DNA of 64,000 nt from Dyadobacter sp. 50-39 (GTDB taxonomy: Bacteria; Bacteroidota; Bacteroidia; Cytophagales; Spirosomataceae): assembly GCA_001898145.1 (NCBI GenBank), contig MKSR01000024.1, positions 1 through 64,000 on the forward strand, given 5' to 3'. The notes below the pieces were generated by a model. The model had not been told where the DNA came from, searched no databases, and saw only the letters and a program-made list of their open reading frames with translations. The position numbers were made by a program, and so were the translations under genes. Positions 30,066 to 51,449 of this stretch are shown here, in pieces (positions within the stretch are counted from its first letter, which is position 1; each line of letters begins with the position of its first letter).

Positions 30066-30077
30066 CGGTCGGCGGAG

Positions 30078-31160: not shown

Positions 31161-31171
31161 GATGATAGTCG

Positions 31172-31915: not shown

Positions 31916-31983
31916 TTTACCAGCGTGTTTAGAGGTGGACTTAGGTTGGCTGGTTTTAAAAATACTTGTTTCTCCGTTGCTAA

Positions 31984-32940: not shown

Positions 32941-32952
32941 ACACTTAGGGTT

Positions 32953-33891
32953 TTATGGATTGGCATTAACCAGTTCTTCCTGCTTCTTTTCCCGCGCCGC
33001 CTTGCTGTCAACAATGGTCAGTATCAAGGTCGACGCGAGTACCAGCACTCCACCGATAATGGCCTGGGTTTTCAATGTTTCGCCCAAAACGAAAGCCGCG
33101 ATGGGCAATCCCATGAACGTAATGAGGTAATTGGACAATGCGACTTGCGTGGCATCGAGGTATCTGAGGACTTTGAAAAACAATAGCATCGACAGGAAGT
33201 TGTGAAAGAGCGTGAGCGCGATCATTCCCGTCCAGGTTTGCGCGGTGTAGTGCGGTATCACCGAAAACATTCCGGGTTCGTAGTACCACACCAGCGGCGC
33301 CAGCAGGATCACCATCACGAGGTAGGTGTAGAAAACCATTTCCATTTCGGTGTACTGTTCCGCGACTTTCTTGCAGCCTACATTATAATAGCCGTTGCCC
33401 AGTATCGCGAGGAATATCAGCAGGTTACCGACGGCATATTGCGAGCTCATATCCATATTCCGGATATCGTCGGTTGAGCAAAGCAACACACCCGCAATGG
33501 CGATACCGAAGCTGATCCAGCGAATGCGGTTCATTTTTTCTTTTAATATAAAAAATGCAAATACCGCTGTTACGACCGGCAATGCCAGGATCAGGATCGC
33601 CGCATTGCTGGCCAGCGAGTACTGCGTGCCCCAGGTCATGAGCACTTGTGACGGGAATGCGCCGATGGCCGCCAGCTGCACGAAAATGAGCACGTCCCTG
33701 ATCTTTTTGTTGCCTTTCTTAAAGTCCCGCCAGGCATACGGAGCCAGGAAAACCGTGGCCAGGAGCATAGGCAGCCAAACCGTAAAATACGGCCCCACCT
33801 GATCCTGCGTAAGCTTTATGCACGTGAAATGGAACGACCAGATCAGGTTGCAGAAGAAGAGGATACTCCACGAAAAGAAGGCTTTCTTCAT
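32953..33891 (-). CDS. EamA/DMT-family transporter
   Basis: A 312-residue integral membrane protein with about ten helices in two EamA repeats (FFCNLIWSFHFTCIKL at the start; ALPVVTAVFAFFILKEKMN; FFKVLRYLDATQVALSNYLITFMGLPIAAFVLGE in the second half). DMT transporters export or import small metabolites such as amino acids and sugar derivatives. The start ATG overlaps the stop of the enolase-superfamily gene by 4 bases (ATGA), so it is certainly in that operon and likely carries the pathway's substrate across the inner membrane. Confidence 0.9.
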   Translation of the reverse strand: MKKAFFSWSILFFCNLIWSFHFTCIKLTQDQVGPYFTVWLPMLLATVFLAPYAWRDFKKGNKKIRDVLIFVQLAAIGAFPSQVLMTWGTQYSLASNAAILILALPVVTAVFAFFILKEKMNRIRWISFGIAIAGVLLCSTDDIRNMDMSSQYAVGNLLIFLAILGNGYYNVGCKKVAEQYTEMEMVFYTYLVMVILLAPLVWYYEPGMFSVIPHYTAQTWTGMIALTLFHNFLSMLLFFKVLRYLDATQVALSNYLITFMGLPIAAFVLGETLKTQAIIGGVLVLASTLILTIVDSKAAREKKQEELVNANP

Positions 33892-35021
33892 GAATGCGCA
33901 GTTAGGATTTTTCCGGTTTGATATTTTTGAAGCGCGTTATAGTCGAGTGTGATACCCAGCCCGTCACCCTGCGGCAATTTCGCGGCGCCGTTTTCGAATG
34001 CGATCGGTTCGGCGATAAGGTCATCTACCCGTACCAGTTCGCCGAAAATGTCCGACGGAATGGCGCAGTTAATGCTGGCCGCCGCAATGTGCAGGCCCAT
34101 GGTTTCCGAAACTCCCAGATCTACCTCCGACCCCCGCCAGCAAAGTTTACCTTCCAGGTAAGCGATCTCGGCCAGCAGCATGCAATTGTAAGCCGAGCCA
34201 TTGAAATTATAGCCATCGGCGGCATCCGCACGCACGAACGTGATCATGTCGCGGATATCCTGCGTGTACGGGAGCGAAATGTGCCTGTAAAGTGGTATGC
34301 CGAGGTGTTTCCGAAGGTATTTAAACCCTTCCACATCCGCATGCAGTACCGGGTCTTCGAGGCCCAGCATGACGTCCATCTCCACACCCTCCATCAATTT
34401 CATGGTGGTATCCACATCGTTCCAGCGCTGGTTGGGGTCGAGCAGGACTTTAATACCTTCACCGCATCGCTTTTTGATCTCCTCCGTCCAGAGCCGCACC
34501 GGGTCCTCGTCGGAGCACTTGAATTTGAATACTTTATGACCTTTCTGCATAGCTTCGAATGCTTTTTGTGCTGCATCCTCCGGTGTCCTCCGGCCTGTCC
34601 AGCCCATGCAATCGACCGTTTCGCGGTAGCCGCCGCCGAGCAATTGGTACACCGGCACATGCAGGAGCTTGCCCACCAGGTCGAGCACACAGCTTTCGAA
34701 AGCCTCGTATATGCGCTGGTCGGTAACAGGCAGCCGCCGCCAGTTCAGTTTCAATACATCCTTGCCAACAAATTCCTGCATACTTTCCCTGACCAGGTCA
34801 CCGGAAGCGCTGCGATATGTTTCGCCCACGCCCGTAAGCCCGTTTGCGAGGGTCATTTCGACGACCCATTTGGGCTGATTGGCAAAATCCGTCCAACTTT
34901 CGCCGGTCAGGAATTTCTTGGCAAATGCGCTGTCCTTGTCCAGAACGGTTTCTGAATTAAGGCTTCCGGGTTTGGCCGGCACGATTACTTCCGTGGCCCG
35001 GACCGATACGATTGTTGTCAT
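33888..35021 (-). CDS. Enolase-superfamily (mandelate racemase/muconate lactonizing) enzyme
   Basis: A 377-residue protein with the N-terminal capping domain (about 1-120) and a modified TIM barrel. Visible catalytic elements are KFKCSDE (KxK-type base after strand 2), LLDPNQRW (Asp ligand 1) and LEDPVL (Glu ligand 2). GVSETMGLHIAAA near the end matches the strand 8 region. At the third ligand position, where most members have Glu or Asp, the sequence reads YRHISLPY, so the metal site may be altered or bind differently. The family dehydrates or racemises acid sugars. The gene overlaps the neighbouring genes by 4 bases at both ends, showing strong operon coupling. Confidence 0.88.
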   Translation of the reverse strand: MTTIVSVRATEVIVPAKPGSLNSETVLDKDSAFAKKFLTGESWTDFANQPKWVVEMTLANGLTGVGETYRSASGDLVRESMQEFVGKDVLKLNWRRLPVTDQRIYEAFESCVLDLVGKLLHVPVYQLLGGGYRETVDCMGWTGRRTPEDAAQKAFEAMQKGHKVFKFKCSDEDPVRLWTEEIKKRCGEGIKVLLDPNQRWNDVDTTMKLMEGVEMDVMLGLEDPVLHADVEGFKYLRKHLGIPLYRHISLPYTQDIRDMITFVRADAADGYNFNGSAYNCMLLAEIAYLEGKLCWRGSEVDLGVSETMGLHIAAASINCAIPSDIFGELVRVDDLIAEPIAFENGAAKLPQGDGLGITLDYNALQKYQTGKILTAHS

Positions 35022-37512: not shown

Positions 37513-39573
37513 TTAGAAATCGGGCTTGAACAGCATCTCGAATGACTGGTCGGCTACATGGTCCGGCTTGTTTTCAATGCGGTAGCTGACGACCTTCAGG
37601 AAAAGCTTTTGCCACAAACCATATTCCACATCGAACCGGCCCAACATGGTATTGAGGCGATAGGGCATATATTCGGAGCGCCAGGCTTCCGAATAGGCGG
37701 CTTTGAGTTCTCCACCCTCATCCATGACATCCACCAGCAGTCCGTGGCACAGGTAGGCAATATCGTACACGACGAAATCATTTTTCTTCCGCTGCAACAT
37801 AGCCTCATTCCATCGGTCGCAAATGGTTTTGGCCCACAAAAAGCGCGTTGCCGAGTAGGTCATCAGCTGCGCTGTGACAATCATAGACCGAACGAATGCC
37901 GTATCCGAGGGACTGCATTTGGCCAATGCATTGATGAGCTCTCCCTGCGCCGCTTCGCCATATTTGCGTGCATCCCGGAAATCCGCAGCGTGCGCATTCG
38001 TGTTTTTGAGATAATAGGGCGAAAACGGGTTCGACCAGCTTTCGATGATGGTTCCGCGCGGCATGCCATTGGTATTCCGGCCGAGGCATTTGTCCAGCGA
38101 AGCATTCGAAGCAGCAAGGTGCTCGAAGGCACGGTGCATTTCTGCGGCCGCCTGCGGGTACATCACGCGGCTATACAACTCAGTAAAGGTCTTTTTATCA
38201 GGAACATTACCTTGCCATGCACCGATACACCCGTAAGCCATAAACAGCCACGAGGCCCGCACAAACGGCTCCACAGGATCTGTCCACACGGAGTGGATAA
38301 ACCCAAGCGCATTGTTTTTCACACCGGCTTGCAGGCAGAGATCGATATTGTTGTAAGTATAATTGGCATCGGGATAAATATGGCCCCATCCTGAAACCGC
38401 CGGCTGTATAAAAAACGGCTTTTTCTCTTTTAAAATAGGATTGAGATAGCGGTTAATCTCAACGGTATCAGGCTTATACTCCCATAAAACCGGTATAACT
38501 TCGTCCGGGATTTTTTTGATGATGTCGGGATAATAATTGTTCATATCCGTCCATGCCAGCACGGTCTTACCATACTTTTTGAGCTCGGCATGCACGAATG
38601 TGAGCTGTTGCACCCAAAGCTCTTCGGAGTTGATGCGGGCATCCTTGTCGTCGGCAATGCGCTTGGTTTCCCAGGTTTCGTCAAACCCCACGTGGATGAA
38701 CGGACTTGGAAAAAGTTGTGCGTACTGCGCGATCCAGTCTTTCAGCAATGCATTCGTAGCGGGTTTGCGCGGGTCGAGCTCGTGCCCGTACTGGCCTATC
38801 GCCAGGCCGGCATACTGCTCGCTGCGCAGCAGTTCGTGCAAATGACCGTACAGGTTGAGGAAAGGCACCACGTCCATGTGCCGCTGCTTGCCGTAGGCGA
38901 TAATGTCGCGTACCTGTGCCTGGGTGTAACCCGAGCGGTATGCGACATTCGGAAAGCCATTCAACGCTATACTGACCTCGTTATAAAAGTAGTACTGATT
39001 GGTTTTCCACCTGGCCAGGAAGTCGATCTGCCGCTTGATTTCCGCAACCGTGGGCAGGCCACCGTGCGCAAAGTCCATCATCACGCCGCGGTAAGTCAGC
39101 CGGGGCTTATCTTCAATGGCCACGCCCTGGATAACCGCATTTTTACCATTACCCGTTATCAGCTGCCGCAAAGTTTGAACCGCATAATATAGTCCCGCGG
39201 ATGTCTCGGCATCTACACGCACGCCTCTACGCGAGACGGCCAGCCTATAATGCTCCCGGCTGCTTTTACCGGCCTTTTCCGACACATCGGGCAATGCACC
39301 TCCCTCCCTCCTAACGACCCATTGAAAGGTCGCCGAAGCGGAAGAAGATGCATTTTTGACACCCTGGCCCGTCCGCTCGCCGATGATACTTTTTAGCTCC
39401 TGCAATGCAAACCGCACCTCGGCATTTGCCGACGGAGGCAAGGCGACCGTCAGTGAGGTTACCAAAAAAACTTCGTCCGAAAAGCGCGCTGATTGCGGCT
39501 GCGGAAACAGTATGGGCGCATTCTGGGCAAAAGCAGGCGTAAAAAGCAAGCAGGCTAAGAGCAGGCGGAGCAT
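37513..39573 (-). CDS. GH20-like beta-N-acetylhexosaminidase family protein
   Basis: A 686-residue secreted enzyme. The signal peptide (1-17, TPAFAQ) is followed by an N-terminal GH20b-like alpha/beta domain (about 20-150) and the barrel starting RLTYRGVMMDFAHGGLPTVAEIKRQIDFLARWKTNQY. The catalytic pair is D298-E299 in HVGFDETWE, where classical GH20 enzymes have H.GGDE; Asp holds the acetamido group and Glu is the acid. A C-terminal 200-residue helical domain is extra. It probably releases N-acetylhexosamine or a related unit at the surface or in the periplasm. It is 26 bp behind SusD, third in the SusC operon. ATG at 39573 is used over TTG at 39579. Confidence 0.88.
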   Translation of the reverse strand: MLRLLLACLLFTPAFAQNAPILFPQPQSARFSDEVFLVTSLTVALPPSANAEVRFALQELKSIIGERTGQGVKNASSSASATFQWVVRREGGALPDVSEKAGKSSREHYRLAVSRRGVRVDAETSAGLYYAVQTLRQLITGNGKNAVIQGVAIEDKPRLTYRGVMMDFAHGGLPTVAEIKRQIDFLARWKTNQYYFYNEVSIALNGFPNVAYRSGYTQAQVRDIIAYGKQRHMDVVPFLNLYGHLHELLRSEQYAGLAIGQYGHELDPRKPATNALLKDWIAQYAQLFPSPFIHVGFDETWETKRIADDKDARINSEELWVQQLTFVHAELKKYGKTVLAWTDMNNYYPDIIKKIPDEVIPVLWEYKPDTVEINRYLNPILKEKKPFFIQPAVSGWGHIYPDANYTYNNIDLCLQAGVKNNALGFIHSVWTDPVEPFVRASWLFMAYGCIGAWQGNVPDKKTFTELYSRVMYPQAAAEMHRAFEHLAASNASLDKCLGRNTNGMPRGTIIESWSNPFSPYYLKNTNAHAADFRDARKYGEAAQGELINALAKCSPSDTAFVRSMIVTAQLMTYSATRFLWAKTICDRWNEAMLQRKKNDFVVYDIAYLCHGLLVDVMDEGGELKAAYSEAWRSEYMPYRLNTMLGRFDVEYGLWQKLFLKVVSYRIENKPDHVADQSFEMLFKPDF

Positions 39574-39599
39574 TGACAAAATTCAGAAGTTTAAAGGTT

Positions 39600-41186
39600 T
39601 CAATTCTTATCCCACCAAAGCGGGGTGGCGGCATTATCCGGCCCTCCAAGCATTTTCACGGCCTTTTCTACCTCGGCTGCATTGGTTTGCTTTTCGGTAT
39701 CGAGGAAAGGCATCCGACGGATGAATGTACCTTCCGGCAGGTCAGCATTTTCGCTATGGACGATCGGGTAAAGCTTCGGCAGTCCTGTTCTTCTCACCTC
39801 AGCCCAGCCTTCCATACCATCCGGAAACAATGCCAGCCATTTCTGCTGTGCCACCTGCTTGCGCTGCATGCTCTCGGAACCGCTCCATTTGACCGGATAA
39901 TCGTTTACCGCCGGGGAATTCATACCATCCTTCGGCGCAATGGGAACTGCCGTGTTCGCAATGTATTTCGCGATGGCCGCCTGGTCCGTGATACCCCACT
40001 GGGCCATGGAAGCCTGAATGCCCTTTTTGTAAAAATCCTCGGCCGTACCGCCCATATTCCAGCCATTGAGAGCCCCTTCGGCACGAAGGAAATAGGCCTC
40101 GGCAGTATGCAGGATGTTCTGGGGCACATTGTAGGTCGTTTTCCAATCGCTGCCTACCCAGGTCGCCCAGCGCGTGCCCATATTGGAATTGAAAAGCCTT
40201 GAATTGATATCGATGATCTTTTCTGACGTAAACAATCCATTACGAACCCCCTCATAAGTGCCTGTCGACACGGACGGCTGGAAGTATACCGGCAGTCGCG
40301 GGTCTGCGTATCCTTTCAAAATCGACTCCATGGAGGCGCTCATACGGACATCGTCCCAGCCTGCCGTAACAGCTAGGCCATTGTATTCGGCATAAGTGGT
40401 GGTCGACTTGGGCATGTAGGCATCGTCGGCAATGTCGGTAAACACGCCAGCTGCCACAGCGGCTTCCGCCTGCTGCTTCGCCATTTCGGGGTTCACTTTC
40501 GATATCCGCAATGCGAGCCGCAGGCGGAGTGTATTCGCAAACTTCATCCAGGCCGTTGCAGGCGAGGCATTTTTGTTATACACCAGGTCGTAAGTACCGA
40601 AAGGCTTATCGCCGGAACGCGATTTCAATACAGTCGAAGCAGCATCCAGTCGTTTGAAAAAATCGTAGTAAATGGAATCCTGCGGCGTGTAGGAAACGTA
40701 GCGTTTGCCCGAAGCGGCATCGGAATACGGAATCGGACCGAAGTAGTCTGTGATCCGGTGGAACATCCACACCCACCAGATATTCGCCAATGCATTCTCG
40801 GCACTTTGCGTTTCCGTACCGGCGATGATCGATTTCAGCTGCGGCGCCGCTGCGGTGTATACGGGGTTCCAGCAGGCGGGCATCCAGTCCTGCCGGATCA
40901 CGTACCGGTCGGTCGGGAAAGAGTGCGCGGCCTGCGACAGGAACTGGGAGTATACCGAAGCGATGGTACCCTCGCCCACCTCGAAATTGTCGGGGCTCAG
41001 CGTCGGGCTCATCAATGCATAGGCAAACATGAACGGGTATTCTTTGCTGCCGACGCTGCTGATTTTGGTCGCATCGGTGTTCAGCGAATCGAAATTGTCG
41101 GTACAGCCGGTCAGAATGGCCGCCACGATGGCCACCGGTAGCATTTTAGTGAGTACCCGGGCTATATTTTTTATCCTCGTCAACAT
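39600..41186 (-). CDS. SusD/RagB-family glycan-binding lipoprotein
   Basis: A 528-residue surface lipoprotein with signal ILTGC (Cys28) and an N-terminal NFDSLNTDATKISSV segment typical of the SusD-like class 2 families. The helical TPR part (NALANIWWVWMFHRITDYFGPIPYSDA; WMKFANTLRLRLALRISKVNP) and the C-terminal AEAYFLRAEGALNGWNMGG and KWLALFPDGMEGWAEVRRTGLPKL are characteristic. It forms a lid on the SusC barrel encoded 12 bp upstream and captures the oligosaccharide. Specificity cannot be read from the sequence; the GH20 and GH109-like enzymes in the same regulon point to N-acetylated sugars. Confidence 0.95.
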   Translation of the reverse strand: MLTRIKNIARVLTKMLPVAIVAAILTGCTDNFDSLNTDATKISSVGSKEYPFMFAYALMSPTLSPDNFEVGEGTIASVYSQFLSQAAHSFPTDRYVIRQDWMPACWNPVYTAAAPQLKSIIAGTETQSAENALANIWWVWMFHRITDYFGPIPYSDAASGKRYVSYTPQDSIYYDFFKRLDAASTVLKSRSGDKPFGTYDLVYNKNASPATAWMKFANTLRLRLALRISKVNPEMAKQQAEAAVAAGVFTDIADDAYMPKSTTTYAEYNGLAVTAGWDDVRMSASMESILKGYADPRLPVYFQPSVSTGTYEGVRNGLFTSEKIIDINSRLFNSNMGTRWATWVGSDWKTTYNVPQNILHTAEAYFLRAEGALNGWNMGGTAEDFYKKGIQASMAQWGITDQAAIAKYIANTAVPIAPKDGMNSPAVNDYPVKWSGSESMQRKQVAQQKWLALFPDGMEGWAEVRRTGLPKLYPIVHSENADLPEGTFIRRMPFLDTEKQTNAAEVEKAVKMLGGPDNAATPLWWDKN

Positions 41187-41198
41187 AATGAGTTGTTT

Positions 41199-44100
41199 TT
41201 AGAATGATAGTTTGAGGTTCAATCCGATGTTCCGGGTCGATGGTAAATTGAAATACTCGATACCCTGGTAATTGCTGTTACCGAGGCTCATTTCAGGATC
41301 GAAATCCATTTTCCGCTTGCCTATGCCCGGAATGTCGAGAATCGCATGACCACGATAGATAAAGAACAGGTTGCGGGCGACCACCGAAAGCCTTGCCGAG
41401 CTGAGGAAGCCGGGCAGGTTTTTGAAATCATACCCCAGCGAAACTTCCCGCACACGAACATTGGTAGCGTGATAAGTAAAGAATTCACCCCACGAATAAT
41501 CGCCTTGTGCAACCGTTTGCCAGAATGCCTCCGCATTCGTAGGAACTGTGTTGGCTGCGCCCTCGGCGGTAACGCCCTCCACTACCCATGAACCTGCATC
41601 GCGGAATTTCTCCGTGTCGACACCCGTTCCATTGTAAGCCATTTGGGCAGCCGTACCCGAAGTAATCACCCCACCGAACTTGCCGTCGATGAGCACATTA
41701 AGCGCCCAGTTTTTGTAATTGAAGTTGTTACTGAAACCGGCTGAAAATTTCGGGTTAAAGTTGCCCAGCTTCTCGATAGCATCCGATTTAACGGGCACGC
41801 CTTTATCGCTCACAACATATTTACCATTCAGCGTTTTCCATTTATAACCATACAAATCCCCGAACGAACCACCCTGCTTGATCAGCGGCGTGGCCGTACG
41901 AACGCTTGTCGATGAACCCAGGTAGAGCTGGCTCACGCCGTCGTAAAGCTCCACTACTTTGCTCTTGTTCAATGCATAGTTGAGGCCCATATTCCAGGTG
42001 AAATCTTTGGCAACAACCGGCTTGATGCTCAGCACCACTTCAAATCCCTTGTTCTGGATATTACCCGCATTCACATTCAGCGTGGAGTACCCCGAAGATG
42101 CAGGCGATGCCACGCGAAGCAGCTGGTTTTTGGAATTGGTTTTGTACCAGGTCAAATCAATGCCCAGGCGGTTGTTGTAAAAGCGCCATTCGGTACCGAG
42201 CTCGACGGATTGCGTCAGCTCGGGCTTCAGGTTGGCAATCGCCTTCGTGCTGCTGCTGGCAATGTAGCCGCCGAACCCGCCACGGATGTAGGTATACGTC
42301 TGACCCAGCAGGTAAGGATCGGCATCGTTACCCACCTTTGTAAACGATCCCCGCACCTTACCCAGGTTTACCCATTGCGGCAGCTTGACCATCTCCGAAA
42401 CGACAGCAGACAAACCGACGGATGGGTAGAAGTAGGAATACGGCGACGGCAGTGTGCTCGACCAGTCGTTGCGCGCAGTGAGGTCAAGGAAAAGGTAATC
42501 TCTGTACCCGAACTGCACCGTTCCGTACACCGACTGCAATTGTCGTTTGGCTGTTGCAGTTTCTGTTTTAAGTGTCGTAGCGTAGCTCAGGTCATATTTA
42601 TTGGCGAAACCAAGCCCGTCGGCCGCATTGATCCGGTGGCGCATGCTCCGGTTCAGAATAGAACCACCCAGGTTATACGTCAGTTTGAGGTCCGGTGCGA
42701 TGTTATTGGTACCGGTGAGCAAAACGTCGGCATTGCGCTCAGCGATGTAGTCGTTCCCCTCGGAATAATAACCGCCCGGCTGCCGCGCATAGTTGACCGT
42801 ATTGTTTGCGTATTTCTGGCTGATGAAATCATTATAGCTATCCGAACTTACCCGGCCCTGGATATTCAGCCAGTCCGTCAGTTTATATCTCAAAACAAAC
42901 AAACCTGTAACACGGCTGCGGTTTTCATCCCGATGCGTGTTGTTGATCGTCCAGTAAGGGTTCATATAAACCGCGTCGGGACTGGTCCAGAATGTAGGTG
43001 TTTCCACCCCGGTGACGTCCACTTTTTTGTAAGATTTAAGTGTCTCGGGATCAACGCTGCGCGGCATACGGTAGACGTTCGCCACCACCATACCATCGCC
43101 TCCCACGCCCGGCTTATTGAAGATGTTCTGCAGCATATATGTCACCTTCACATCCGCCGACAGCCTGCTTGTGATATCGTAGCTCAACCGGGCATTGAAA
43201 GTGTTTCTGGCCAACCGGTTATGCGGCACTATGCCGTTGATGTAGTTATTGGCATATGAAAAATACGATTGCACCTTCTCGGAGCCGCCGCTCACGCCTA
43301 CCGAGTTGTTGGTAGAAATCGCAGTTTTGAAAAAGTCCCTGATATTGTCGGGATAAGCTTGCAGGGAGACAGTATTACCCGCCCAGTTCTGTACGCTCTG
43401 GCCTGTAATGCGCGCCCCCCAGCTTCCGTTGGTGAGCGTGGAATAGACCCCGCCGGAGCCCTGGCTGTAAGTATTTTGCAATGCGGGTGTTACCAGCGCC
43501 TTGTCTACCGTAACGCCGGAATTCACATTTACATTGATCTTTCCGTTCTTACCTTTTTTGGTCGTGATCATGATTACCCCGTTGGCTGCACGGCTTCCGT
43601 AAAGCGCCGCTCCCGCCGCCCCTTTCAGGACGTTAATCGACTCGATGTCATCGGGGTTGATGCTCGATGCACCGTCGCTCCCGCTATGCCCGCCTGCATC
43701 GTAACGCACCTGGCCCGCGGGCGTGGAATTGTCGATCGCCACCCCGTCCACGACGATCAATGCACTGTTGGAGCCCTGGATAGAGCGGTTACCCCGCAAA
43801 ACAATCCTCGTAGCACCGCCGGGGCCATTCGCGGAGGGAGTAATGGTGAGTCCGGCGATTTTCCCGGAAAGGGTATTCGTGAAGTTTGCGTCGCGGATCT
43901 CATTCACCTGGTCGCCGCCTATTTTCTGCGTCGCGTAGGTGAGCGTCTTCGCCGCCCGCTCGATACCCAGGGCCGTGACCACTACTTCCTGCAAGCCCAT
44001 GGCATCGTCGGACAACGTAATGTCCCCCAACGCGTTCCTGTTGCCGATCTGCACTTCCTGCGTTTTCATACCTATATATGAAACGACGATGGCGGAGGCG

Positions 44101-44381
44101 CTTTCCGGCACGGCTACGTCAAAGTTTCCGTCTTTGTCGGCGATAGCTCCCAGCGTGGAATGCTTTACCACCACGGACGCACCCGGCACCGGCGCGCCCT
44201 TCTGATCGATAACCCGCCCGGTGATCTTTTTATTCTGTTGTGCATTGGCCTGGCTGAAACAGGCAGTAACGATCAGCACTCCCAGCAGCATTGAAAGGAC
44301 CCGCAGGCGGTTACGTAAACGAAGCCGCAGCAAAGGAATCTCCGAAGGGAGGGATTCCGGGAATTTTAGAGATTTTTTCAT
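41199..44381 (-). CDS. SusC/RagA-family TonB-linked outer-membrane transporter
   Basis: A 1060-residue SusC protein. Signal peptide about 1-48, ending QANAQ; carboxypeptidase-like domain (ITGRVIDQKGAPVPGASVVVKHSTLGAIADKDGNFDVAVP); plug with the SusC hallmark LSGKIAGLTI, RGNRSIQGSNSALIVVDGVAID and VLKGAAGAALYGSRAANGVIMITTKKG; then the barrel, ending in NIGLNLKLSF. It imports the oligosaccharide captured by SusD using TonB energy. ATG at 44381 is favoured; an upstream in-frame ATG at 44426 would add 15 residues. The promoter at 44430-44510 holds the second paired operator. Confidence 0.95.
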   Translation of the reverse strand: MKKSLKFPESLPSEIPLLRLRLRNRLRVLSMLLGVLIVTACFSQANAQQNKKITGRVIDQKGAPVPGASVVVKHSTLGAIADKDGNFDVAVPESASAIVVSYIGMKTQEVQIGNRNALGDITLSDDAMGLQEVVVTALGIERAAKTLTYATQKIGGDQVNEIRDANFTNTLSGKIAGLTITPSANGPGGATRIVLRGNRSIQGSNSALIVVDGVAIDNSTPAGQVRYDAGGHSGSDGASSINPDDIESINVLKGAAGAALYGSRAANGVIMITTKKGKNGKINVNVNSGVTVDKALVTPALQNTYSQGSGGVYSTLTNGSWGARITGQSVQNWAGNTVSLQAYPDNIRDFFKTAISTNNSVGVSGGSEKVQSYFSYANNYINGIVPHNRLARNTFNARLSYDITSRLSADVKVTYMLQNIFNKPGVGGDGMVVANVYRMPRSVDPETLKSYKKVDVTGVETPTFWTSPDAVYMNPYWTINNTHRDENRSRVTGLFVLRYKLTDWLNIQGRVSSDSYNDFISQKYANNTVNYARQPGGYYSEGNDYIAERNADVLLTGTNNIAPDLKLTYNLGGSILNRSMRHRINAADGLGFANKYDLSYATTLKTETATAKRQLQSVYGTVQFGYRDYLFLDLTARNDWSSTLPSPYSYFYPSVGLSAVVSEMVKLPQWVNLGKVRGSFTKVGNDADPYLLGQTYTYIRGGFGGYIASSSTKAIANLKPELTQSVELGTEWRFYNNRLGIDLTWYKTNSKNQLLRVASPASSGYSTLNVNAGNIQNKGFEVVLSIKPVVAKDFTWNMGLNYALNKSKVVELYDGVSQLYLGSSTSVRTATPLIKQGGSFGDLYGYKWKTLNGKYVVSDKGVPVKSDAIEKLGNFNPKFSAGFSNNFNYKNWALNVLIDGKFGGVITSGTAAQMAYNGTGVDTEKFRDAGSWVVEGVTAEGAANTVPTNAEAFWQTVAQGDYSWGEFFTYHATNVRVREVSLGYDFKNLPGFLSSARLSVVARNLFFIYRGHAILDIPGIGKRKMDFDPEMSLGNSNYQGIEYFNLPSTRNIGLNLKLSF

Positions 44382-44475
44382 AAACAAAGATTTCGGAACA
44401 GTAATGGGTTTAATGGGCAAACACAATCGCTCCTCCCCGAATGGGGTGAGCAGGCAATAAGAGGTACTCGAATTT

Positions 44476-44508
44476 ATGTTAACAAATATATTATTTTTTT
44501 GTCAACAA
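44476..44508 (-). promoter_or_regulatory. Paired GntR-type operator before the SusC operon
   Basis: ATGTTAACAA (44476-44485) and TTGTCAACAA (44499-44508) are 23 bp apart, the same spacing as at 37384 and 37407, and are 95-127 bases upstream of the preferred SusC start. Confidence 0.65.
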
Positions 44509-44624
44509 AAAAATTTGAGAAAAATTATTGTTCTGCATTTTCGACAAATGATCTATCGCGAATAGGCGAACTTGCCGAATACTGTCCAGTTACTGCCGGC
44601 TCCCACCGAAAATCCTATGGGTAC

Positions 44625-44659
44625 AAAAAAAGCCGGTCCCGTGGGGTTGGGACCGGCTT
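44625..44659 (-). terminator. Terminator of the GntR regulator gene
   Basis: AAGCCGGTCCC (44630-44640) pairs perfectly with GGGACCGGCTT (44649-44659), 29 bases after the stop at 44688 on the minus strand, followed there by a run of seven T. A strong intrinsic terminator separating gntR from the SusC promoter. Confidence 0.9.
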
Positions 44660-44687
44660 GCAGCCATATCAATGCTTTATAAATGGT

Positions 44688-45326
44688 CTACGTAAGGTCG
44701 ATGGACGCCACCTCACCACGGATCAGATGTTTCAAAAGCGCTTCCTCTGCCCGTTTGACGTCACCCTCCTTAATACCCGCCACGATTTCGCGATGCTCCT
44801 GGTCGGTCAGTTCGTAGTCGTCCATATGCGTTTGCGTTTTACCCAGTTTTTGGTGAAACAAAGGGATATTACTCGCCTGGTACAAGTCCACAAGTTTCTC
44901 ATTACCAGCACACTCAATCAAGGTTTCATGAAATTTAACATCCGCCTCACAAGCTCCGCCAAAGTAGCCGCGCTCGACCATCGACGTAAAGTCATCGCAA
45001 ATGCGGTCGAGTTCTGCGACCTGCTCGGCGGTCACTTTCTGTATCAGTAGCCGCAACGCGCCTATTTCAAGGATTTCCCGAAGCTCGCGGATCTTATGGC
45101 TGTCTTCAAGGGTGAGTGTTTTCACGAAAAAGCCTCCCTTTTCTCCCTGCACTATCAACTGTTCACCCAGAAGCCTGGTCAACGCCTCGCGGATAGCCAT
45201 TCTGTTGACGTCCAACTTCTTAGACCATTCATCCTCTTTCAACCGCGTTCCCGAGGTGAGTTGGTTCGACAGTATCTTTTTTCTCAGTTCTGTATAGGCC
45301 CTGTTCGAGAGTGAGTCTTCCTTCAT
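44688..45326 (-). CDS. GntR-family transcriptional regulator, FCD type
   Basis: A 212-residue regulator. The winged helix-turn-helix (about 8-72) reads LTSGTRLKEDEWSKKLDVNRMAIREALTRLLGEQLI split over its core, and is followed by the wing QGEKGGFFV. The C-terminal all-helical FCD domain (about 80-205; IRELREILEIGALRL; FHETLIECAGNEKLVDLY; DHEEIV-type His/Asp metal site) senses an organic acid in FadR/LldR/UxuR relatives. It is placed between the SusC operon and a divergent glycosidase-like gene and has the paired motif in its own promoter, so autoregulation and control of the neighbouring sugar genes are likely. Confidence 0.93.
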   Translation of the reverse strand: MKEDSLSNRAYTELRKKILSNQLTSGTRLKEDEWSKKLDVNRMAIREALTRLLGEQLIVQGEKGGFFVKTLTLEDSHKIRELREILEIGALRLLIQKVTAEQVAELDRICDDFTSMVERGYFGGACEADVKFHETLIECAGNEKLVDLYQASNIPLFHQKLGKTQTHMDDYELTDQEHREIVAGIKEGDVKRAEEALLKHLIRGEVASIDLT

Positions 45327-45362: not shown

Positions 45363-45519
45363 AAACATTTATATAAAGGTAAGCAATATTCATAACTTCC
45401 GTTTGTGTATACAATGTATCTACTTCTATACACTTTTTTCAAAGTATTTCAGTTTTCAAGCATTTTTCTCGTATTTTACCTTTCCGAAACACCTCCTTAG
45501 GTTACAAATAAACCGACCC

Positions 45520-46830
45520 TTGTCTATTAGAATACATCTACTGCTGCCGCTGGCTTTCATGCTTGTGCTGTCGGGCTGTTTGGGAGAAAAAGAACCCAAC
45601 AGATCGGCAAAAGTTTATATTGACCATTCCGATGGCCGCTACACCGTTATGCGAAACGGCAAACCTTACGCGATCAAAGGTGCCGGCGGCGACTCTCATT
45701 TCCGCGAACTCCGGGAAGCCGGTGGTAATACCGTGCGCACCTGGGATACCACCCGTCTGGCCCAGGTGCTCGACAGCGCGCAAAAGCATGATCTGGCGGT
45801 AATCGTCGGCCTCCCGCTTCCCAATAGCGGTGACATATCTTTCTACACTGATCCCAAAATTACCCAAACCCGTTATCGGGCATTGCAATCAATTATCAGG
45901 AGGTTCAGAAACCATCCTGCGGTGCTGATGTGGTGCCTGGGTAATGAGCTGGATTTTCCCTACAAGTGGACTTACGCAGACTTTTACGATTCGTTCAACG
46001 AGCTTACCGACATGATCCACCGGGAAGATCCTGACCATCCTGTCACCACTACCATCCTGAATTTTAACCCGAAATACATTATGAATGTCAGGCTGCGCTG
46101 CGACATCGATGTCATTTCCTTCAATATTTTCAGCACGATCCCCAAGCTCCGGCAAAGCCTCGACGACCTTGCATGGTTCTGGAAAGGCCCCTACATGCTG
46201 CTTGAATGGGGTATCAACGGCCCTTGGGAGGGCACGGAACAAACGGCCTGGGGTGCCTATATCGAAGACACCAGTAAAAAGAAGGCCGAAACCTACCAGC
46301 GACGTTACCGCGAACATATGCCGCTCGACGACCCGCGTTTTCTGGGCGCCTGTGTCTTTTACTGGGGGTGCAAACAAGAAACCACCCAAACGTGGTTCAG
46401 CATATTCGATGAAAACGGCAACGCTTCCGAGGCGGTTGATGCCATGCACCAGATCTGGACGGGTAAACCTTCGAACGTGGCGTATCCCGGTCTCAATTAT
46501 ATGCTGGTCAACAGCAAGGGTGCGCGGGATAACATCCTCTTGAACCCGTCGGCAGCGGCATCCGCGGAAGTGGTGCTGCTCAAAGGCCAGGACAGCATCC
46601 GCGCGATCCGCTGGCAGATTTTCCGGGAAGACTGGTACCGCGAAAACCAGATTAACAGCACACGGAGACTGACGCCGCTTTTGACAATGGCGAGTTCCGG
46701 AAACAATCCGCGCTTTTCTTTTACAGCCCCGAAGCAGGAAGGTCCCTACCGGATTTTTGCCACTGTGTATGATAATGCCGGAAATTTCGCTTCAAGTAAT
46801 ACCCCGTTTTATGTCGTAAGCCCCCCATGA
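45520..46830 (+). CDS. GH2/GH5-like TIM-barrel lipoprotein
   Basis: A 436-residue lipoprotein (signal ending MLVLSGC). After a short strand region with the GH2-type opening YTVMRNGKPYAIKGAGGDSHFRELREAGGNTVRTW, spread over residues 30-80, comes a TIM barrel with the acid/base E143 in MWCLGNELDF and the probable nucleophile E229 in YMLLEWGINGP. A C-terminal beta domain (about 350-436) ends the protein. No ATG precedes the signal, so TTG at 45520 is the best start. Its stop overlaps the next gene's ATG by 4 bases. It is probably an active glycosidase or transglycosylase working on the polymer made by that synthase. Confidence 0.8.
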   Translation: MSIRIHLLLPLAFMLVLSGCLGEKEPNRSAKVYIDHSDGRYTVMRNGKPYAIKGAGGDSHFRELREAGGNTVRTWDTTRLAQVLDSAQKHDLAVIVGLPLPNSGDISFYTDPKITQTRYRALQSIIRRFRNHPAVLMWCLGNELDFPYKWTYADFYDSFNELTDMIHREDPDHPVTTTILNFNPKYIMNVRLRCDIDVISFNIFSTIPKLRQSLDDLAWFWKGPYMLLEWGINGPWEGTEQTAWGAYIEDTSKKKAETYQRRYREHMPLDDPRFLGACVFYWGCKQETTQTWFSIFDENGNASEAVDAMHQIWTGKPSNVAYPGLNYMLVNSKGARDNILLNPSAAASAEVVLLKGQDSIRAIRWQIFREDWYRENQINSTRRLTPLLTMASSGNNPRFSFTAPKQEGPYRIFATVYDNAGNFASSNTPFYVVSPP

Positions 46831-49787
46831 ACCAGACAATATATGTAAAACCTCCTACCCGCAAGCAACTGATCATGCTGCGGCTGATGATCTTCTTCGG
46901 ACTGGTTTCGATGGGATTTTTTATCACCAGTGTCCTCTCCGAATCGGTGAGGGGCTATGCGCCTTTGTACTGGATGCTCGTGGTCACATTTGTATTCACC
47001 TGCCTGAAAGTGCTGCATGAATGGCTGCATTACCTGTTCATCACCGTGCCGCCCACGCCGCCGCTGACACGCAGGTACACGGTGGATATCTTCACGACTT
47101 TTTGCGCCGGTGAGCCCTACGAAATGATCGTGGAGACTTTGACGGCTATTCAGAATATTACTTATCCGCATGAAACTTACCTGTGCGACGAGGCGGACGA
47201 CCCCTACCTGCGCGGGGTATGCGAGCGCCTGGGCGTGCACCACGTCACGCGCACGGACAAGCGGAATGCCAAGGCCGGGAATATCAACAATGCATTGCGC
47301 ATCTCCAAAGGGGAACTTTGCGTGGTCCTCGATCCCGACCATGTCCCTTTTCCCGACTTCCTCGACCCCATCGTTTCGCATTTCGACAATCCCGAAATCG
47401 GTTATGTACAAATTGTACAAGCTTACAAAAATCACGATGAAGGGCTGATCGCCAAGGGCGCTGCTCAGCAGACCTATCAGTTTTATGGTCCGATGATGAT
47501 GACCATGAACCACTACGGGACCGTGCTCGCTATCGGGGCCAATTGCACATTCCGCCGGACGGCGCTGGATTCCATCGGCGGACATTCGGCAGGCCTTGCG
47601 GAAGATATGCATACTTCCATGCAGCTGCACGCGAAGGGATGGAAGTCAGTATATGTACCGGTTGTGCTTGCGCGAGGGCTGGTACCTTCCACACTGTCGG
47701 CCTACTACAAGCAGCAGCTGAAATGGTCACGCGGGGTTTTTGACCTGTTTGTGCATGTGTATCCGAAATTGTTCTCGAAGTTCACGTGGGCGCAGCGGCT
47801 GCATTACGCTTCGATCCCGCTGCATTATGCTTCGGGTTTCATTTTCCTGATCAACTTCCTGATCCCCATACTGGCACTGGTATTCGACGTAAGCCCGATG
47901 CACTTCGACCTCACGGATTTCTTCCTGGTGATCCTGCCCATGGTTTCCTGCATTGTACTGATCCGGCATTTTGTGCAATGGTGGGTGATGGAAGATGAAG
48001 AACGAGGCTTCCACGTCGTGGGCGGGCTTCTCATGATCGGCACCTGGTGGATATTTATCCTGGGCATACTTTATACGATTTCAGGCAAGAAAATACCTTA
48101 CGTACCCACTCCGAAAGATGGTAACGAGGCCAACAACTGGCCGCTCAATATCCCTAACCTGGCCGTGCTGGGCATTTCCATTCTGGCAATCATCTACGGG
48201 CTGTATGAGGACCTCAACCCCTATAACCTTATTATGGCCGGTTTCGCCGGGGTGAACTGTTTTTTCATGTGTTTCAATATCGCAGCGAGCCGCCAGCAGC
48301 AGATACGCGAATTTTCCGGTTCATCGGCATTCCTTGAAAATGCATTCAAAGCGATCAAGGAGTTCAAGGGTAATTTCTGGATTTTGCGCCGGCGCATTTA
48401 TGGCGGTGTACGCACTTCCGCTTTCCTGATCACCATACTGGTGATCAGCATCATCATTTACTTCCGGCGCTTCAATCCCGAATGGGAATATGATATGGCG
48501 ATTGCCCATAAAAACCAGGCATATGCCAGCAAACTGGCGAGGCAGAAGTCTATCCCGCATCCCGGTGTCCCGGCACTCTTTCGTGCCATGGGCGTACGTG
48601 AGCCGGCAGCGAATGCCCCGAATGCCGAAAATCCGATTATTTTCTTCGAAGGCACCCGAGGGGTAAACTATACCAAGGGGCATAACTGGTCGCGCAGGTA
48701 CCCTGCATTTACCAAGCCCGAGCTCGAAGCCGACCTTACCCAAATGCAGCGGACGGGTATCAATGCAATCCGGCATTTCGGCCCCGGCATTTACGATTAT
48801 AACATTCTAAGGGCTACCCGGCGAGCCGGAATCAAGGTTCACTACACATTCTGGGTTCCTGAAACGCTCGATTTCATTCAGAACAAAGACGGTGCAGATG
48901 AGCTGGCAGATGAAATCCTGGCGACCGTTAGCCGGCTCAAAGACAAAAAACACATTGTATCCTGGAACATCGGCAATCCGGCGCTGCAACGGCAGCGTCG
49001 TTCAAAGCGTGTTGCGGAGCAAAAGCTGTATCTGGAGTGGCTGAAAACCGTGAGCGAGGCAATCAAGCGCATCGACGGATCGCGACCCCTTACCGTAGAT
49101 CTTTTACTGAATGGTGATACACAAAAGCTGGCCTATCTGATCAAACAGGTATCCCCGGCTGTGGATGCATTCGGACTGGTGTTAATGAACGGCGGAAAGA
49201 AAATAGAAGGGCTCCGTCTTCCGGAATTGGCCGCCCCTTGCTACCTGAGCTACATCGGCGCCGACGCTTTTGCCAAAATCAGCGAGCGACATGCCGGCAC
49301 CTTTGTGTCCAACTGGCAGGATGAAAAGATATTTAAGCATGTAAGCTTCGATGGCCTGCGCGATTACGCCGGAAGACCGAAACGTTCGCTGGAAGTATTG
49401 GAATCAATATGGAGCGGCCAACAAGCGCCGGGACCTACCGTGCCTTTCAAAATCCTCAAACCCGCCATCGGCACTTTTGAAGGTTCAAACCTGGATTATC
49501 ATGCTATTATGCAGCAGGATAATCAATGGAAGGTGTTCGGCGGGTCAAAAGGTGTCCGGCTCGAATGGAAGCTGGCCCGGACGGATGGCTTCAATAATCC
49601 GATCGAAATGACGGATATCGGCGAAGGAACGCAATTAACGCTCAACATCCCGCAACATGCGTCGCTGTACCGGCTGTACCTCTATGTGATCCGCGATGGA
49701 ATCGTTAATGAAATCATCGAATCGGAGCTCAATACACCCCTTCAACCTCAGCAAAAACCACGAGGGCCATTAGTGACCGGCCTGTAA
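46827..49787 (+). CDS. GT2 polysaccharide synthase fused to a glycosidase-like domain
   Basis: A 986-residue membrane protein. Two helices (about 18-36, 46-64) are followed by a cellulose-synthase-like GT2 domain (about 85-310) with DEADD, the DxD motif D169-P-D171, the base D260 in LAEDMH and Q297-L-K-W300 at the place of QxxRW. About five or six more helices follow, the last at about 531-549. The remaining 435 residues should lie in the periplasm and form a GH2/GH5-like barrel (FFEGTRGVNYTKGHNWSRRYP; GINAIRHFGPGIYDY). There the acid/base position reads WNIGNP, with P718 instead of Glu, and the nucleophile strand has no acidic residue, so this domain is probably a polymer-binding pseudoenzyme. 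Product unknown. Confidence 0.85.
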   Translation: MNQTIYVKPPTRKQLIMLRLMIFFGLVSMGFFITSVLSESVRGYAPLYWMLVVTFVFTCLKVLHEWLHYLFITVPPTPPLTRRYTVDIFTTFCAGEPYEMIVETLTAIQNITYPHETYLCDEADDPYLRGVCERLGVHHVTRTDKRNAKAGNINNALRISKGELCVVLDPDHVPFPDFLDPIVSHFDNPEIGYVQIVQAYKNHDEGLIAKGAAQQTYQFYGPMMMTMNHYGTVLAIGANCTFRRTALDSIGGHSAGLAEDMHTSMQLHAKGWKSVYVPVVLARGLVPSTLSAYYKQQLKWSRGVFDLFVHVYPKLFSKFTWAQRLHYASIPLHYASGFIFLINFLIPILALVFDVSPMHFDLTDFFLVILPMVSCIVLIRHFVQWWVMEDEERGFHVVGGLLMIGTWWIFILGILYTISGKKIPYVPTPKDGNEANNWPLNIPNLAVLGISILAIIYGLYEDLNPYNLIMAGFAGVNCFFMCFNIAASRQQQIREFSGSSAFLENAFKAIKEFKGNFWILRRRIYGGVRTSAFLITILVISIIIYFRRFNPEWEYDMAIAHKNQAYASKLARQKSIPHPGVPALFRAMGVREPAANAPNAENPIIFFEGTRGVNYTKGHNWSRRYPAFTKPELEADLTQMQRTGINAIRHFGPGIYDYNILRATRRAGIKVHYTFWVPETLDFIQNKDGADELADEILATVSRLKDKKHIVSWNIGNPALQRQRRSKRVAEQKLYLEWLKTVSEAIKRIDGSRPLTVDLLLNGDTQKLAYLIKQVSPAVDAFGLVLMNGGKKIEGLRLPELAAPCYLSYIGADAFAKISERHAGTFVSNWQDEKIFKHVSFDGLRDYAGRPKRSLEVLESIWSGQQAPGPTVPFKILKPAIGTFEGSNLDYHAIMQQDNQWKVFGGSKGVRLEWKLARTDGFNNPIEMTDIGEGTQLTLNIPQHASLYRLYLYVIRDGIVNEIIESELNTPLQPQQKPRGPLVTGL

Positions 49788-51449
49788 TGCTTTTACGAAA
49801 CGATTAAAGGTGGACTGGCTGATTCCCCAGTTGGGTGCGGGTATGTTACCCCAAACCGCCGGGTTATCAGCCAGGTTGAAATAGCTCGCGCCAACCACTT
49901 CTTTGTGGACCGCCAGCACTGCTGCGGCTTTTTCCAGCCATTGGGTCTGAAAATCTTCTGGCCCTTTCACGCCGAATTCCGTTACAAATATCGGTTTGGA
50001 GGCAAACCGCATACGCCAAACCTTGCGATCGAATATAGTTTCGAAAGACTCCTGCTTGGTCGGGTCGGTAATGTTCTTGTCGGGCAGACCATAAATGGCG
50101 ACACTGATGAAATCCACCACGTCGCCTCCGGGATACCATTCCATGGAACCTCTGTCACCGGCAGGGCCCCACACTTTTTTTACATTTTCAATTCCCTTGC
50201 TGAGCCCCATGAAATGCCGGAATGCCTTGATATACGGCACCGGATCGCGGCTCTGCCACGAATACCGGTGAATGGGAATTTCCATTTCGTGCGCAAATCG
50301 GACGTAAACCGGGAGGCGGGTCTTTGAAATGGTGTTAAAAAGTGATTTGAATTCCTCATCATAGACTCCCTGTGCTGTATTTTCCAACCCCAGGGAATCG
50401 TTTCTTGCTTTCAAGTCGCGCCAGGGTTCAACAGAAACGATCGCCTGATGGCCTCGCCGGACGATCGCCTCGAAATCCTTAGCGAAAATCCCCTTCTGAA
50501 TATTTTCAAGGTCGACAAACAAATGCTCAACCTGCACGGCCTTGGAACCGGTAAGCGCCAGTTTCGGATCATAGACGCCCAATATCGGCAGCGCATTGGC
50601 GGGCCGGCCTTGCGGCTGCTTAATGCTGTATGTCTGGAACAGCCAGGCAGAATCTTTCCTGATCTGTCGGGTAGCCGCCTTCAAATCGACTTGCAATGCA
50701 TTCACCAGGCTGTCGCTACCAGAAGCCAGTACCCAAACCGGTTTGTTCATGAACCGGGTGCGGATCAACTTTCTCCGAAGTGCCGTTTCTGCGTCGGGAC
50801 CCGCCGGGTAAGCCGTCGCCGAGCGCTCGCTTTGCCCGTTGACCGAGACACCGATGGCGTCCACCACGTCATCGCCCGGCCAGTATTCCTCCGTACCCGG
50901 ATAACCCGCGGGAGACCACATGATTTCCAGCGATGGCTTGGCTTTTTTGCACGTCCTAGCCACATGCCGGAATGCCTTAATGTAATCGACCGGCGACTGG
51001 TATTGCCACGAATGGCGCTGCACCGGTACTTCCATATCCGGATCCCAGCGCAGGTAAATGCGTTTTGTTTCAGGCAATGCGCGGCATAGCGAATGCAATA
51101 CGTCGTCGAAATCGCCATCCGTTACCAATGTAAGCGCTCCCTCCTGCCCGGCCGCGACGGTCAGCAACAAGTCCTGATCAGCCTTAACGCCTTGTAATAC
51201 AGCAGCGAGAGCGGCTTCGGAAGTCTTTGGATGAATTTGAATAGAGATGTGTTGAAGTGGAGGATTTATTACTCCCAGCGAATCAGCGCGATTGATGTAT
51301 CCTACCGGCTGCTCGGCAAAAGCGGCGTTCATTACATCGGCGGCTTTACCGTCGGATTTGGAATGCGGGGAAGCCCGTAGCCAGTAAAACACCAGTGCGC
51401 CGACTGCTAAAAGCCCTGCGAGTAGTAAAAAAACGCCTTTTATCTTCAT
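49770..51449 (-). CDS. Tandem GH26-like protein, one active-looking and one degenerate half
   Basis: A 559-residue membrane-anchored protein (signal anchor about 5-25). It holds two homologous GH26-type barrels. The C-terminal one keeps the acid/base (RFAHEMEIP, H387-E388) and the nucleophile (FVTEFG, E491). The N-terminal one repeats the same frame (RWDPDMEVP; then HSWQYQSPVDYIKAFRH) but has P137-D138 instead of His-Glu and no glutamate in the nucleophile strand (WVLASGS). GH26 enzymes cut beta-mannan or related beta-glycans; with the convergent GT2 synthase next door the target is probably the exported polymer. The gene overlaps the synthase 3' end by 18 bases. Confidence 0.85.
   Translation of the reverse strand: MKIKGVFLLLAGLLAVGALVFYWLRASPHSKSDGKAADVMNAAFAEQPVGYINRADSLGVINPPLQHISIQIHPKTSEAALAAVLQGVKADQDLLLTVAAGQEGALTLVTDGDFDDVLHSLCRALPETKRIYLRWDPDMEVPVQRHSWQYQSPVDYIKAFRHVARTCKKAKPSLEIMWSPAGYPGTEEYWPGDDVVDAIGVSVNGQSERSATAYPAGPDAETALRRKLIRTRFMNKPVWVLASGSDSLVNALQVDLKAATRQIRKDSAWLFQTYSIKQPQGRPANALPILGVYDPKLALTGSKAVQVEHLFVDLENIQKGIFAKDFEAIVRRGHQAIVSVEPWRDLKARNDSLGLENTAQGVYDEEFKSLFNTISKTRLPVYVRFAHEMEIPIHRYSWQSRDPVPYIKAFRHFMGLSKGIENVKKVWGPAGDRGSMEWYPGGDVVDFISVAIYGLPDKNITDPTKQESFETIFDRKVWRMRFASKPIFVTEFGVKGPEDFQTQWLEKAAAVLAVHKEVVGASYFNLADNPAVWGNIPAPNWGISQSTFNRFVKALQAGH

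Follow-up and report, generated by a model that had tools for sequence, protein, structure and literature searches.

The window analysed here comprises the first 64,000 nucleotides of contig MKSR01000024.1 of Dyadobacter sp. 50-39 (GenBank assembly GCA_001898145.1), which sits in a genome of 7.7 Mb. It encodes a polysaccharide synthase of 986 residues, with no internal stop, in which a membrane-embedded glycosyltransferase family 2 (GT2) core is followed by a glycoside hydrolase (GH) domain of the GH158 type that has lost its catalytic glutamates. A survey of related synthases confirmed that loss of the catalytic Glu in the fused domain is a rule of this family, beyond chance, and not a local accident. 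A GH158 gene accompanies the synthase at every locus examined, and the fused domain is under purifying selection. The most economical account is a division of labour, with extrusion of the chain by the synthase, holding by the dead barrel and cutting or transglycosylation by the separate GH158. That the barrel sits at the synthase exit, holds an emerging glucan there and hands it over to the live GH158 is a proposal to which we give even chances.

A GH158-like barrel without its catalytic pair

Residues 1 to about 550 form the GT2 membrane synthase. Pfam GT2-type matches fall within residues 98-353, and structures of BcsA match the synthase at about 1e-33. In an alignment of 11 sequences D121, D169xD171, E259D260 and QQLKW (296-300) are invariant, and the D, DxD and ED motifs of the core are thus in place. 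Residues 296-300 read QQLKW in 104 of the 105 synthases described below and QQIKW in the remaining one, with Lys in place of the Arg of Q(Q/R)xRW; a link of this signature to linkage specificity is possible. The hydropathy of 19 homologues places two helices before the GT2 domain and several after it, of which the last covers residues 533-544.

A previous, sequence-only reading had described the remainder of the protein as a 435-residue external barrel. The AlphaFold2 (AF2) model of residues 555-986 (predicted local distance difference test, pLDDT, 87.9) indeed contains an (α/β)8 barrel, at about residues 605-865, but this TIM barrel is only part of a stretch of 432 residues that also includes a C-terminal β-sandwich at about 874-967; the external location is discussed below. 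The model, Foldseek and VIA agree on the combination of barrel and Ig-like sandwich that is found in GH158, and a profile search matches the domain to the GH158(Pro) structure 9oro at 1.2e-8. GH2, GH157 and GH164 barrels follow at lower Z in the VIA list, which does not exclude families that it does not contain.

In BuGH158 the acid/base Glu follows an Asn at the end of β-4 (N136/E137), and this Asn is needed for activity according to the available part of the source (PMC7157763). In the fused domain, WNIGNP (713-718) aligns with WCLGNE of the lipoprotein encoded immediately upstream, which places Pro718 at the acid/base position, and the nucleophile position on β-7 (E220 of BuGH158) is taken by Tyr809 within PCYLSYIG. 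The change from WxxGNE to WNIGNP and the loss of the nucleophile had both been read from the sequence and were borne out, as was the retention of both glutamates in the upstream lipoprotein: E152 (acid/base, codon 45946-45948) and E238 (nucleophile, codon 46204-46206), numbered from position 45493.

The same reading had called for a survey of Glu loss among homologues. The survey drew on 38 regions, taken from 37 genomes of the family to which the window belongs, and on 79 named loci (from the best 80 of 208); after removal of duplicates, and with the window included, this gave 105 synthases in 104 loci. The named loci come from Dyadobacter, Persicitalea, Mucilaginibacter, Larkinella, Pedobacter, Parapedobacter, Segetibacter, Siphonobacter, Runella, Pseudarcicella, Arcicella, Flavihumibacter, Flavitalea, Ferruginibacter, Terrimonas, Chitinophaga and Chryseolinea and from less classified metagenome-assembled genomes (MAGs); the six nearest named relatives of our locus are all from Dyadobacter (L069-L072, L077, L100; 79-82% identity over the best segment). 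Eighty-five synthases are of type A, in which a GH158-like module is expected, and 20 are of type B, a sister group with a GH26-like module only. The reading frame is open in the great majority of the type A proteins, and the fused GH158-like domain could be tallied in 78 of them, the others having a broken frame (L093, L107), running into a contig end (L123, L142, L145) or having lost the barrel (L143, L144).

None of the 78 domains retains the acid/base Glu, while 67 still have the Asn before it. The position is occupied by Thr (21), Ala (20), Asn (15), Pro (9), Asp (4), Ser (3), Tyr (2), Leu (2), Lys (1) or His (1). The nucleophile Glu is kept in eight domains, including those of three Larkinella proteins, and is absent from 70, one of which has a gap there. 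Of the two outcomes that would have told against the sequence-only reading, Glu kept by most homologues or a fold unlike a TIM barrel, neither was seen. Over both types, each of the 98 synthases whose module could be analysed (78 of type A and 20 of type B) carries at least one glycosidase module without a full catalytic pair, and these modules belong to two families. A pseudogene or a product of chance is ruled out by these counts together with the low substitution ratios given below. In a sample of 395 genomes from the phylum, 15 match the profile of the ectodomain at 1e-10; ten of them, the genome of the window included, match beyond 1e-100 in frames of at least 984 residues, which is consistent with fusions, although these were not individually inspected.

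Complete GH158 and GH26 enzymes at the same loci

The upstream lipoprotein matches the structures of GH158(Pro) (9oro, 1.8e-57) and BuGH158 (6pal, 1.4e-48). Its start codon is uncertain (45403 or later), and its last 4 bases, the stop included, are shared with the beginning of the synthase gene. Such a GH158 ORF (open reading frame) is present at 104 of 104 synthase loci. Where the partner ORFs span the region concerned, the acid/base Glu is found in 102 of 102 and the nucleophile Glu in 104 of 104; there are 107 distinct partner ORFs, five being fragments without the acid/base region, two of which are the tails of broken synthases. For all 81 synthases of the window and the named loci the GH158 ORF lies upstream on the same strand, from a 205-base overlap to a 134-base gap, distances that use mechanical ORF starts and include a few cut or broken partners (L103, L113, L146). 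In type B it is found close by in the 20 regions, in varying orientation. When 61 genomes of the family were searched with both queries, the 18 with a synthase were the same 18 with a GH158, and 19 of the 23 GH158 matches sit at the synthase locus. A few synthase-bearing genomes have an extra GH158 match away from it (L171 in G044, L172 in G018, L173 in G016). In Chitinophaga japonensis (L109:8624-18868) two GH158-synthase pairs follow one another; the first fused GH26 lacks the His before the acid/base residue and the second looks intact. When neighbouring genes were clustered, without annotating each of them, GH158 (104/104 loci) was followed by a tandem GH26 gene (38/104) and then by a SusC-like cluster (21/104).

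The commonest protein in the survey (59 of 105, about 1250 residues) carries the GT2 core, a GH26-like module and the dead GH158-like domain, in this order. The synthase of the window is a short form without the GH26 module, and so are 20 other type A proteins. Since the short forms are scattered among the long ones in the GT2 tree, repeated loss of the module is probable. The window lineage is one that has lost it, and it has a separate dead-live GH26 pair adjoining the synthase. The fused GH26 of type A proteins is intact in 41, degenerate, remnant or absent in 40, and incomplete or short in four; in type B the nucleophile is absent from 20 of 20 modules and the acid/base residue is present in 10 of 20. 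A common origin of the fused GH26 in the two types has weak tree support (0.18).

In the separate tandem GH26 proteins both Glu are found in 38 of 38 C-terminal halves and the nucleophile in none of 38 N-terminal halves. The nearest solved relative of the live half is Endoglucanase H (2bv9, 2.6e-15), which we take to be the lichenase CtLic26A, followed by β-1,3-xylanases; β-mannanase matches far more weakly. A separate tandem gene is found at 26 of the 36 type A loci without an intact fused module versus 8 of the 33 with one (Fisher p 9.7e-5, uncorrected for kinship); the loci compared have at least 4 kb on both sides, which leaves out 16 of the 85 type A rows (12 with short flanks, four incomplete or short). 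A strict swap of the fused module for the separate dead-live gene was rejected, this being a tendency and not a rule. Among 20 genomes searched, those of L088 and L089 carry a tandem gene elsewhere, and so does the genome of L105, which has an intact fused module; both Runella genomes tested lack one despite a degenerate fused module; and in the sister group, where the swap fails, it is found in 1 of 20 genomes. The tandem GH26 profile matched none of 40 synthase-negative genomes, the same query giving matches in other searches. In one Siphonobacter (L093:6421-8159, a region also in L042) the dead and live halves are two ORFs, and close to the 3' end of the synthase gene its frame is interrupted. 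The GH158 identity of the fused domain, the GH158 partner at all loci, the GH26 module of the commonest fusion and the dead-live GH26 neighbour all go beyond what had been read from the sequence.

A possible role for the dead domain

We compared the ratio of non-synonymous to synonymous substitution rates (dN/dS) in 21 pairs among seven close relatives. It is 0.077-0.134 for the ectodomain, 0.070-0.131 for the lipoprotein and 0.019-0.051 for the GT2 core. Many dS values approach saturation; for the three pairs with the least divergence, whose dS is 0.67-0.95 in each of the three parts, the ectodomain gives 0.098-0.110. W621, D636, W713 and D832 are present in 78 of 78 fused domains, Y615, W830 and K852 in 77, Q831 and Y656 in 76 and D657 in 74; the D657 column holds D or E in 77, the K617 column K or R in 76, and W901 and W914 of the sandwich are found in 77. 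Most of the near-invariant residues lie at the catalytic ends of strands. Six aromatic columns on the catalytic face are at least 85% conserved (Y615, W621, Y656, F675, W676, W830). The purifying selection together with the near-invariant Trp621, Asp657, Trp713, Trp830 and Asp832 argues for a retooled, non-hydrolytic module that would handle the chain, presumably by binding it. The idea that the dead domain arose when the neighbouring gene was recently duplicated is not supported, as the 77 fused domains in the tree group together in a single clade (support 0.94), separate from the partner GH158s. This tree was rooted at its midpoint and has a poor outgroup, in which the frame taken for L171, L172, L173 and L158 was evidently not that of GH158, the remaining members being unchecked.

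The loop that precedes the last helix (483-532) contains 9 K/R versus 3 D/E, and the helix itself is one that we take not to be part of the BcsA plan. This additional helix and the positively charged loop before it suggest that the C-terminal domain is periplasmic. A processive GT2 synthase would then polymerise a β-glucan in the cytoplasm and thread it through its own membrane channel, and the dead GH158 barrel, tethered at the periplasmic exit by the extra transmembrane helix, would hold and steer the chain without cutting it, in an old substrate cleft rebuilt around the near-invariant residues. The barrel would present the chain to the live GH158 lipoprotein, the product of the overlapping gene, which would trim or transglycosylate it; in the window lineage the adjoining live GH26 may act too. 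The glucan is probably β-1,3 or mixed 1,3/1,4. The substrates of GH158 enzymes, and of the GH26 relatives closest among solved structures, are β-1,3 or mixed-linkage glucans or β-1,3-xylan (the lichenase activity of the GH26 relative being presumed here), and the GH158 partner and the relatives of the live GH26 half thus favour, without proving, such a glucan. Chain handling is also supported by the sister group, in which 20 of 20 members have a second glycosidase fold, GH26, attached to the same synthase and devoid of the nucleophile. The sequence-only reading had proposed that the dead domain grips the emerging chain or gates its release; homology, topology, selection and the conserved aromatics make the grip the best-supported role, and nothing specific points to gating.

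Several observations weigh against this account. The topology was drawn solely from hydropathy and charge, and its parity, which requires the segment 402-412 to be interfacial, flips if that segment spans the membrane. A model of all 986 residues (pLDDT 61, predicted template modelling score 0.43) was rejected as too poor for topology or for placing the domain over the channel. A strict lipobox pattern is found in just 50 of 100 long partner ORFs, that of the window included, so that lipoprotein status is sure for only part of the partners. The catalytic face is not more conserved than the opposite one (mean Jensen-Shannon divergence 0.448 vs 0.506; one-sided p 0.95), and the conserved residues named above were chosen post hoc, after this test. 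Conserved aromatic columns show no clear enrichment either (6/91 on the catalytic face vs 1/41 opposite, 3/102 in helices and 3/19 in strand cores). Live GH158s share a conserved segment after β-7 that has been deleted from 76 to 78 of the 78 fused domains, and the old cleft is therefore altered. Two MAG synthases (L143:4968-7265 and L144:8273-10390) have lost the whole barrel and keep the C-terminal β-sandwich, which may have a job of its own. With its own conserved residues, the null result of the face test and the deletion after β-7, the barrel looks retooled and not merely disarmed.

A docking platform and a rewired active site are serious rivals to chain holding. The domain could mainly serve protein docking or assembly, recruiting the GH158 lipoprotein or a neighbouring synthase with no need of glycan contact. 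This would fit an opposite face that is as conserved as the catalytic one, a sandwich that is retained where the barrel is lost and that has conserved tryptophans of its own, and a GH158 partner in the same locus throughout; the near-invariant W621, W713, W830, Q831 and D832 at strand ends of the catalytic face, however, are seemingly more than docking would need, and we regard it as possible, on the unlikely side. The barrel could also be rewired and not dead, with Asp832, Asp657 and Lys617 as candidate catalytic residues for transglycosylation or another form of chain release. D832, at the end of β-8, belongs to a column outside the set at least 85% conserved in live GH158s, and it is invariant here, with the acidic D657 column and the basic K617 column almost so. 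Asp and Lys among aromatics would equally fit a binding site, though, and we know of no precedent for such rewiring in clan GH-A; we judge it improbable. That the domain is the decaying relic of a former fused hydrolase seems very improbable indeed: the fused GH26 of some Dyadobacter, Runella and Siphonobacter does look degenerate or partly deleted, two synthase frames are broken and two barrels are lost, but the low dN/dS, the residues invariant over many genera, the single fused clade and the mostly open frames all speak against decay.

A further alternative, which may overlap with chain holding and hand-over, is remodelling of the NdvB kind, in which the live GH158 or the fused GH26 would cyclise a short β-glucan held by the dead domain. 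The nearest described design, judging from the part of the source available, is the GH17-GT2 protein Orphan/NdvB of pseudomonads, in which a BcsA-like GT2 carries a GH17 domain with catalytic motifs; cleavage and cyclisation of the chain are the proposed work of this domain, whose barrel is periplasmic by the authors' prediction (PMC10237404). The general plan is shared, as both have a BcsA-like GT2 core and a tethered clan GH-A barrel of the β-1,3-glucanase type. In Orphan/NdvB, as far as that text goes, the barrel is GH17, N-terminal and keeps its motifs, whereas here it is GH158-like or GH26-like, C-terminal and without a complete catalytic pair, and the present family, unlike Orphan/NdvB, has a separately encoded, catalytically complete GH158; the Pfam matches of our synthase include none to GH17. 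In favour of this reading, no gene beyond GH158 and the tandem GH26 recurs widely at the loci, but a rare exporter could be missed by the clustering; GH17 and GH158 have just their clan in common, and the cyclic product is conjecture. We think this reading unlikely.

A broader form of the chain-holding proposal, put forward tentatively and with somewhat less than even confidence, is that a family of β-glucan synthases of Bacteroidota relies on a dead glycosidase module at its exit, a state reached with two glycosidase families (GH158-like in the main group and GH26-like in the sister group), with the catalytically complete cutter kept in a separate GH158 gene. The dead barrel would have been remodelled to give a new site (Asp832, Asp657, Trp621, Trp830) for gripping, metering or even chemical processing of the nascent chain. 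How a growing chain passes from a bacterial synthase to machinery for cutting, cyclising or release is poorly understood, and evolution seems here to have split holding, by a synthase barrel without a catalytic pair, from cutting, by a complete partner barrel. If true, nature would offer here a two-part system for the study of chain capture free of hydrolysis. It would also point to an uncharacterised β-glucan in many soil and plant-associated Bacteroidota, and GH158 and GH26 genes beside such synthases would not automatically be evidence of glucan feeding.

Relation to known proteins and position in the window

The fused domain shares the barrel and Ig-like sandwich of BuGH158 (6pal) and GH158(Pro) (9oro series, known from database titles), and differs from both in lacking the acid/base residue, mostly the nucleophile, and the segment after β-7, in having conserved residues of its own and in being attached to a synthase; the upstream lipoprotein is their catalytically complete relative. 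The GT2 core has the motifs of BcsA and 28.3% identity to a plasmid-borne E. coli BcsA, and differs by QQ(L/I)KW in 105 of 105 synthases instead of QxxRW and by the extra C-terminal helix and ectodomain. Membership of BcsA was rejected: PilZ is not among the Pfam matches of the synthase, and PF03170 (BcsB) has no match in the genome of the window, in a search whose controls found it in E. coli and B. subtilis. Unlike Endoglucanase H, the GH26 protein is probably membrane-anchored, paired with a dead twin and encoded in a synthase locus. Glycan-binding GH18 barrels that are catalytically dead, for example the chitinase-like lectins, have kept a glycosidase fold as a glycan handler after the loss of catalysis; these are of another family and not part of a synthase, whereas the present domain is fused to one. 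A GH26 gene also occurs in an Actinoplanes exopolysaccharide cluster of another pathway, as given in the available part of the source (PMC13390465). Among the literature matches listed, titles and the beginnings of abstracts revealed no GT2 fused to a dead GH158 or GH26, subscription papers being mostly outside the search. The features of the locus are collected in Table 1.

Table 1. Coordinates of the synthase, its parts and the adjoining glycosidase genes in the window
Feature	Positions	Strand	Basis or remark
Synthase gene	46827..49787	+	GT2 core, transmembrane helices and putatively external dead GH158-like domain
GT2 domain, probably cytoplasmic (~residues 83-335)	47073..47831	+	Pfam and BcsA matches, invariant columns
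Last hydrophobic helix, core (533-544)	48423..48458	+	Hydropathy
Pseudo-GH158 barrel (~residues 605-865)	48639..49421	+	AF2 model, Foldseek, VIA, profile search
Codon of Pro718, acid/base position after β-4	48978..48980	+	Alignment and model
Codon of Tyr809, nucleophile position near end of β-7	49251..49253	+	Alignment and model
C-terminal β-sandwich, Ig-like as in BuGH158 (~residues 874-967)	49446..49727	+	AF2 model, profile search, VIA
GH158 lipoprotein, catalytic pair complete, lipobox LSGC	45403..46830	+	PDB matches, alignment
Tandem GH26 protein, convergent	49770..51449	-	N-terminal hydrophobic stretch (probable membrane anchor); overlaps synthase 3' end by 18 bases
N-terminal GH26-like half, dead (PDM for HEM; Ala at nucleophile position)	50550..51347	-	Alignment
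C-terminal GH26 half, catalytic pair intact (HEM, TEFG)	49773..50549	-	Alignment

Upstream of these genes (37513-45326) the window contains a SusC/SusD pair, a GH20 gene and a divergent GntR/FCD regulator, which together look like an ordinary locus for glycan uptake; of these, SusD and GH20 are found again in only 6 of the 104 loci. Further upstream (28680-35021) lies a gene with a GH109-type C-terminal domain, near genes for an EamA transporter and for members of the enolase superfamily.

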